Assembly: GCF_000003605.2 (NCBI RefSeq)
Contig: NW_003122908.1
Location: 102,068-166,067 of the forward strand
Origin: Saccoglossus kowalevskii
Taxonomy: Eukaryota; Hemichordata; Enteropneusta; Harrimaniidae
Length of the DNA stretch: 64,000 bases
Direction of reading: 5' to 3'
Shown: one piece after another, positions 22,506 to 44,398 of the stretch
How the letters are laid out: each line of letters begins with the position of its first letter
How positions within the stretch are numbered: the first letter of the stretch is position 1
Made by a program: the position numbers and the translations under genes
The notes under the pieces: generated by a model
What the model saw: the letters and a program-made list of their open reading frames with translations, nothing else
Told to the model about the DNA's origin: nothing
Database searches by the model: none

Positions 22506-23447
22506 ATGATGGAACAAACGGACTTGAAGCAGGTTTCCATGATGGGCTCAGGTCAGATTTGCAGTTCGAACCCGACTACTCCAACCTCCAGTTCCGCCAA
22601 CAAAATGCTGGGACCTGACCGTGTCAAACGTCCGATGAATGCCTTCATGGTGTGGTCCCGTGGACAGCGACGTAAGATGGCGCAGGAGAACCCCAAAATG
22701 CATAACTCTGAGATTAGTAAACGACTTGGGGCCGAATGGAAGTTGCTGTCGGAGGCTGAGAAGCGACCATTTATCGACGAGGCCAAGCGACTTCGGGCCG
22801 TACACATGAAGGAACACCCCGATTACAAATACCGACCAAGACGCAAGACGAGACACTTATGAGAAAGATAAGTATGGACTCCCCGGTATGATTTCACCCG
22901 GTGGTGGGGCTCTGTTCAACGGGCCGTCGATGGTATGCAGTATCCACTCAATGGTTACATGAATGGTGGCTACCCAATGATGCAACCAGACCAACTGTCA
23001 GCGCACACATATCAACCCCATAGCCTCGCTAGCGCTCAATCACAAATGGCGCAGGCTAATGGCGGACTTCACCCGCGCTATGACATGCCAAGTCAAATTT
23101 ACACACCTATGTGTACAGCCGGCTCCTATGTCAACCCGCCGACGAGTTACACTATGACAGCACCTTACACAACACAACACAACCAAATGCACCAGTCTCC
23201 GGCAGCGGTGGGAATCTCCAAATCAGAACCAATGGTGAGTGCGGCGACGGCGGCAGCAGTAGCAGCGAACCGAGGAAGGAGCTGTCCGGGCGATTTGAGA
23301 GAAATGATTTCCATGTACCTACCGGGTGATGCCAACGACCCAAATGCTCGTCAACACAGCAATGCCATGGTGGCACACCAAGAACAATATTCACAGAATC
23401 CGTCAGGAGTCGGGGTAAACGGTACGGTCCCCCTTACGCATATGTAA
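22506..23447 (+). CDS. SoxB1: SoxB1-group HMG-box transcription factor (Sox1/2/3 family), single exon, three apparent 1-nt deletions
   Basis: A nuclear DNA-binding factor of the Sox1/2/3 group; the family binds CATTGTT-type sites and maintains neural and stem-cell progenitors. The start is the first ATG of a tandem ATG ATG (22506, 22509), and no ATG occurs in the preceding 160 bases. The HMG box starts at D38 (22617) with [20 protein letters not shown] and runs to about residue 117 ([12 protein letters not shown]). Later come GISKSEP (about 237-243, a SUMO-type KSE site), an Ala-rich stretch, [15 protein letters not shown] (about 261-275, SoxB1-specific) and the C-terminus [10 protein letters not shown]. 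As written, frame 1 stops at 22860-22862, a middle piece ([15 protein letters not shown]) reads in another frame, and the original frame resumes at 22935. One base is missing at each of about 22851-22852, 22861-22863 and 22931-22934. Allowing for these gives about 314 residues, close to vertebrate SOX2 (317). There is no intron, as is usual for SoxB1. An expressed gene with consensus errors is more likely than a pseudogene, because the distal domains are fully conserved. Confidence 0.95.
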
Positions 23448-43991: not shown

Positions 43992-44075
43992 TGGAACTGG
44001 GATTGGTAGGTAGATGCAAACATCACCTTTTTGTGTTGTTACTGAAAACTCGTGTTGCCGTTCCGTGACACGGGA
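43992..44075 (+). repeat. Gap-flanking duplicate, left copy (84 bp)
   Basis: This segment, from TGGAACTGGGATTGG to ACACGGGA, is repeated directly after the N gap. The only difference is four A instead of five in one homopolymer. It is most likely the same locus represented at both contig ends. Confidence 0.9.
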
Positions 44076-44313
44076 NNNNNNNNNNNNNNNNNNNNNNNNN
44101 NNNNNNNNNNNNNNNNNNNNNNNNNNNNNNNNNNNNNNNNNNNNNNNNNNNNNNNNNNNNNNNNNNNNNNNNNNNNNNNNNNNNNNNNNNNNNNNNNNNN
44201 NNNNNNNNNNNNNNNNNNNNNNNNNNNNNNNNNNNNNNNNNNNNNNNNNNNNNNNNNNNNNNNNNNNNNNNNNNNNNNNNNNNNNNNNNNNNNNNNNNNN
44301 NNNNNNNNNNNNN
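44076..44313. other. Assembly gap (238 N)
   Basis: A run of 238 undetermined bases. The length is not a round default, so it is probably an estimated gap size. The sequence on its two sides is the same (see the flanking repeats), so the true gap may be zero or negative. Confidence 0.99.
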
Positions 44314-44398
44314 TGGAACTGGGATTGGTAGGTAGATGCAAACATCACCTTTTTGTGTTGTTACTGAAAAACTCGTGTTGCCGTTCCGTGACACGGGA
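44314..44398 (+). repeat. Gap-flanking duplicate, right copy (85 bp)
   Basis: Identical to 43992-44075 apart from one extra A in an A-run near 44367-44371. Unique sequence continues after 44398. A genuine tandem duplication spanning the gap is the alternative reading. Confidence 0.9.

Follow-up and report, generated by a model that had tools for sequence, protein, structure and literature searches.

SoxB1 genes are needed by animals for building the nervous system. In the snail Lymnaea, TKT is described as a SoxB1 motif and KKDK as a motif of the Sox family, with KKDK and LPG present in both SoxB1 and SoxB2, and PKS in SoxB2 (PMC11024475, in the passages available to us). A frameshift in human SOX2, p.D123VfsX31, was found in a patient and disrupts the frame in the KKD stretch right after the HMG box; according to the available part of that study, the product is nuclear and binds DNA, and cell assays showed a dominant negative action (PMC9977424). 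Two sources, both available in part, propose that SoxB genes have undergone gene conversion, one in amphioxus (PMC3029401) and the other, concerning an intron, in flies (PMC1166547). Single-base deletions that split conserved genes are also described for draft assemblies in the Kastor paper, where deletions are tied to runs between two and eight bases long (PMC12007338, excerpts).

The window, by which we mean the whole 64,000-nucleotide stretch analysed (contig positions 102068–166067, from an assembly of 572 Mb and 4830 contigs), contains a gene which is, judged by its sequence, a SoxB1. Its coding sequence (22506–23447, plus strand) comprises 942 bases, a multiple of three, and is free of introns as far as the frame shows. 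The complete HMG box is read in frame 1 from the ATG at 22506 (PF00505 at 100.9 bits in Pfam) and is closest to those of SOX1/2/3: the eight top PDB sequences all belong to SOX-2, among matches that comprised no SOX1, SOX3 or SoxB2 chain, and 76 of the 78 residues from DRVK to RRKT are identical to the SOX-2 chain. The SoxB2 combination of a P after RRK, PKS and a SoxB2 tail is absent, the residue after RRK being T. The SOXp domain across the breaks is likewise shared with SOX1/2/3 and with invertebrate SoxB1 proteins, as would be LPG and TKT- and KKDK-type motifs, which fall partly in broken codons or shifted frames; by comparison with these proteins, the gene as assembled has its frame broken in three places (Table 1). 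As in human p.D123VfsX31, the frame is lost in the KKD stretch right after the HMG box, although the human change is a patient's mutation (PMC9977424, in part) whereas the window gene most likely carries an assembly error.

Table 1. Features located in the window, with the basis on which each was placed.
Feature	Positions	Strand	Basis
SoxB1 coding sequence, 5' part: N-terminus and HMG box to K-T	22506–22850	+	Frame 1; PF00505; best eight PDB sequences SOX-2
HMG stretch similar in DNA to SoxB2, silent sites included	22617–22850	+	Alignment to L001
Breaks 1 and 2: codon after K-T and codon after T-L-M, each without one base	22851–22863	+	Frames; comparison with SOX-2 and SoxB2
Middle piece in shifted frame, 23 residues	22864–22932	+	Frame reading; SOXp
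Break 3, positioned to within a few bases	22933–22934	+	Frame and SOXp continuity only
SoxB1 coding sequence, 3' part, frame 1 again, to stop TAA (23445–23447)	22935–23447	+	Frame; SOXp
False gap, N run 44076–44313 between flanks equal at 84 of 85 columns	43992–44398	.	blastn repeat pair

An earlier note on this DNA had placed the end of the first open part at K-T, an in-frame stop shortly after it and the return of SoxB1 in the original frame, and our reading of the frames confirmed each of these: frame 1 from 22506 reaches K-T at 22845–22850 and TGA at 22860–22862, and SoxB1-like sequence is found in frame 1 again from 22935. The shifted frame of the middle piece runs to a stop at 22960, and frame 1 itself reopens at 22872 and stays open to 23445–23447. 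Frame 1 supplies the first T of TKT, and shifted frames supply T-L-M, KDKY and LPG. Broken codons hold the K of TKT and the first K of KKDK, and both SOX-2 in PDB and the SoxB2 of this genome have a K at these first two broken codons. The third break is covered by no outside sequence. Since the coding sequence is a multiple of three, the net shift must be three or none; no other stop or shift was seen in the 942 bp besides this patch. Three positions placed uniformly in 942 bp would span 83 bp or less with a probability of about 0.02, and this clustering points to a local bad patch rather than to an even error rate. The same note had taken the position of all three losses in short one-base runs as a sign of error; this argues little for error, as 40 of the 90 bases in 22851–22940 are part of a run of at least two in any case.

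The frame was repaired by placing an X at every broken codon, with no bases guessed, and this gave a protein of 314 residues. In the joined protein the SOXp domain (PF12336) was matched across the breaks at 52.9 bits, over profile positions 1–84 of 88; as assembled, only the downstream piece matched SOXp, at 21.7 bits and below the cut-off of 22.1, and Pfam searches with the upstream and middle pieces alone gave no SOXp match. The phmmer match of the X-joined protein to SOX-2 extended through KTxTLMxKDKYgL. Frameshift-aware alignment was carried out with the human SOX2 stretch PRRK...LPGG as query (19 residues, from a stretch of 29 printed in the accessible part of PMC9859272; 13 residues identical to part of this stretch are also printed in PMC12585912, likewise accessible in part). 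Allowing one shift, the real DNA scored 66, and allowing two, 74; when the part after 22850 was shuffled 500 times by dinucleotides, the scores reached no more than 53 (one or two shifts) and 56 (three or four shifts). The SOXp score and the shuffles both speak for a repair that rejoins SoxB1. As for the three particular single-base insertions that had been put forward, the broken codons stood, but the exact bases lost were less certain than claimed, and the sequence evidence appears to fix the former better than the latter.

The uncertainty over the exact bases comes from a different error or mutation, in which one two-base loss near 22860, accompanied by three changed residues, is combined with one loss at the third break. 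This alternative overlaps the best explanation and differs from it only in which bases were lost. It requires one event fewer at a cost of 5.9 bits in SOXp (50.0 versus 55.9), and a single shift already reaches 66 against 74 in the frameshift-aware alignment. We nevertheless regard it as unlikely, given that it demands the three residue changes, two of them at residues kept by SOX-2 and by the genome's own SoxB2, with SoxB2 similar at the third, and that it sacrifices the exact T-L-M lying between the breaks.

An assembly error is, with high probability, the best explanation of the breaks in SoxB1. Just downstream of the HMG box, the assembly would have dropped one base at each of three sites spread over about 85 bp, and the cause would probably be local, such as a badly covered, filled or polished patch; in that case the living animal most likely has no such frameshifts, and its SoxB1 is most likely intact. 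A consensus error had been favoured in the earlier note, and this is supported by several results. SoxB1 DNA searched against the 572 Mb assembly matched only itself and the HMG box of SoxB2, and among 18 HMG matches in the genome, scored for the best candidates only, SoxB1 and SoxB2 alone exceeded 100 bits; as far as these searches show, SoxB1 is single-copy. The SoxB2 gene (locus L001, 994–1728, minus strand) has an unbroken frame of 244 amino acids. A search of the whole genome for SOXp found the SoxB2 domain and missed that of SoxB1, which is damage of the kind that had been predicted for automatic annotation. Finally, the window contains a false gap whose flanks differ by one base in a run of A.

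This false gap lies about 21 kb from the SoxB1 breaks. Its 238 N are flanked by the same 84–85 bases (84 of 85 columns equal, the sole difference being A4 versus A5), and the two copies abut the gap exactly, one ending at the N run and the other beginning there; they were the only repeat pair listed by blastn in the window (1e-8, low-complexity filter). It looks like one piece of DNA present at two contig ends that were left unmerged. The A4/A5 difference could also come from heterozygosity or a real tandem repeat. Six N runs were present in 264 kb of the contig (N included), and end-to-end overlap was found only at the false gap; of the other five, three were fully testable, one being without a left flank and one having only 68 bases of it. 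The false gap is one example and not a rate. N runs also adjoin the end of the window (contig 166068–167252) and span contig positions 1–22068.

Some observations count against an assembly error. Long runs are kept in the window (A to 17, T to 19, G to 13 and C to 15), so that the data are unlike those of a technology which simply shortens runs, and the rest of the coding sequence is unbroken, so that three errors in 85 bp require a local cause. By their nature as single-base deletions splitting a conserved gene, the breaks resemble the draft-assembly indels of the Kastor paper; there, however, the genomes are small and the reads long (PMC12007338, excerpts), whereas here the errors are clustered. 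A hairpin was considered as a cause and rejected, as the stretch did not fold unusually well (z 1.07; 174 of 200 shuffles equalled or surpassed it). Pattern searches for SoxB1 of a close relative gave 1 match in a viral contig and 29 in genome contigs, none of which was confirmed.

Elsewhere in the window, Pfam searches with 18 of the 23 ORFs of at least 110 amino acids (the two SoxB1 pieces and three ORFs with N being set aside) gave no match over the cut-off and one below it (E 0.07); searches for tRNAs and in Rfam were likewise negative. SoxB1 seems to lie in a gene-poor stretch, on a scan of ORFs of at least 110 amino acids, outside which short exons would fall. As no other gene was recognised in the window, no local frameshift rate was measurable. 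HSP70 was tried as a genome-wide yardstick for frameshifts and gave 26 matches, five with internal stops, four of these five on one contig; it was dropped as a measure of error, because such stops could stem from intron edges, from a pseudogene or from errors.

It is quite improbable that the assembler instead picked a real heterozygous loss-of-function allele, with a protein that would stop just past the HMG box and could be dominant negative. The predicted truncated product retains the whole HMG box, the D123 frameshift product of human SOX2 interferes with the normal protein (PMC9977424, in part), and nothing in the DNA alone speaks against such an allele; it would, however, need three separate one-base losses in a gene that is otherwise unbroken, and a DNA search found no second allele in the assembly. 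A true pseudogene, or a SoxB1 really truncated in this species, is very unlikely despite the in-frame stop. This is the only SoxB1 found in the genome, its HMG stretch is nearly unchanged (76/78), and the 3' codons remain open, with SOXp running on into them; neither gene-wide decay nor an intact copy elsewhere was found, one patch alone being broken. Given a sole SoxB1 copy and a human SOX2 frameshift at nearly the same place that is dominant negative, a fixed real truncation is not to be expected.

The SoxB2 gene of this genome was informative about the site of the breaks, where it reads KPKSIMKKDRY (stretch RRKPKSIMKKDRY). It has the PKS motif of Lymnaea SoxB2, but has KKDR and FPIP where both SoxB1 and SoxB2 of Lymnaea have KKDK and LPG (PMC11024475, available passages). 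Aligned with the window, SoxB2 DNA gave one-base gaps near both of the first two breaks, in 144 equal alignments, so that their placement is not unique; a MAFFT alignment of SoxB1 and SoxB2 gave one such gap.

The HMG boxes of the two genes have 212 of 234 bases in common, and the likeness extends to silent sites. Among shared codons other than Met and Trp, 51 of 67 are identical, where codon usage predicts 27.5; under a harsher usage model 31.0 were expected, and 100,000 draws never exceeded 48. Fourfold sites are equal at 20 of 29. As controls, both genes were compared with six of 16 further HMG matches (L003–L008), some of them distant and some aligned over one exon only, which gave 9/41 fourfold sites and 35/111 codons for SoxB1, and 11/42 and 39/110 for SoxB2. 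Against the SoxB1 control, Fisher's test gave p values of 1.6e-4 (fourfold) and 6.7e-9 (codons), and against both controls 2.9e-5 for the fourfold sites, the sites not being fully independent. Upstream of the box the similarity is absent (17 of 60 bases), and it drops past 22850, where the breaks start.

As the genes differ outside the box and carry other motifs after it, a recent whole-gene duplication is unlikely; the sequences are more readily accounted for by past gene conversion of the HMG box or by silent constraint. Reads of the two paralogues that were mixed up in the assembly may also contribute to the shared silent sites. That these sites are shared up to the breaks suggests, as an alternative to conversion, assembly trouble at the paralogue's edge: with about 91% of the HMG-box bases equal to those of SoxB2 and a drop in similarity at 22850, misplacement of reads or of the polisher at this edge is a candidate cause of the errors. 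In the available part of a cuttlefish study, SoxB1 and SoxB2 differ in 37% of codons (20/53) (PMC4917168), by comparison with 20/78 (26%) here, which is no large difference and counts against making much of the silent-site finding.

We also considered that the three losses are genuine and were jointly produced by repair synthesis where a SoxB2–SoxB1 conversion tract ends downstream; the tract would be marked by the shared silent sites of the HMG box ending at about 22850. Repair-linked frameshifts have been reported (PMC3039667), reportedly in yeast, and for this reason the idea is retained, with very little credence.

Bypass of the break in mRNA, by splicing or ribosomal frameshifting, is practically negligible: 413 intron-like pairs with donors in 22560–22860 would join the frame, but no GT occurs between the end of the HMG box (22829) and the stop, the pairs with donors after 22820 use GC at 22843 or AT sites and all remove the KKDKY stretch, and frameshifting would have to change frame three times within 85 bp, which no recoding signal is known to do. 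Splicing round the stop was rejected, the rescue of the frame costing this conserved stretch.

This assembly makes an important developmental gene difficult to read, and automatic counts may record SoxB1 as truncated or missing. Were the losses instead real and formed at the border of a conversion tract, the animal would carry a truncated and possibly dominant-negative SoxB1 allele. If the likeness at silent sites stems from gene conversion, phylogenies that rely solely on the HMG box may mislead in such lineages.
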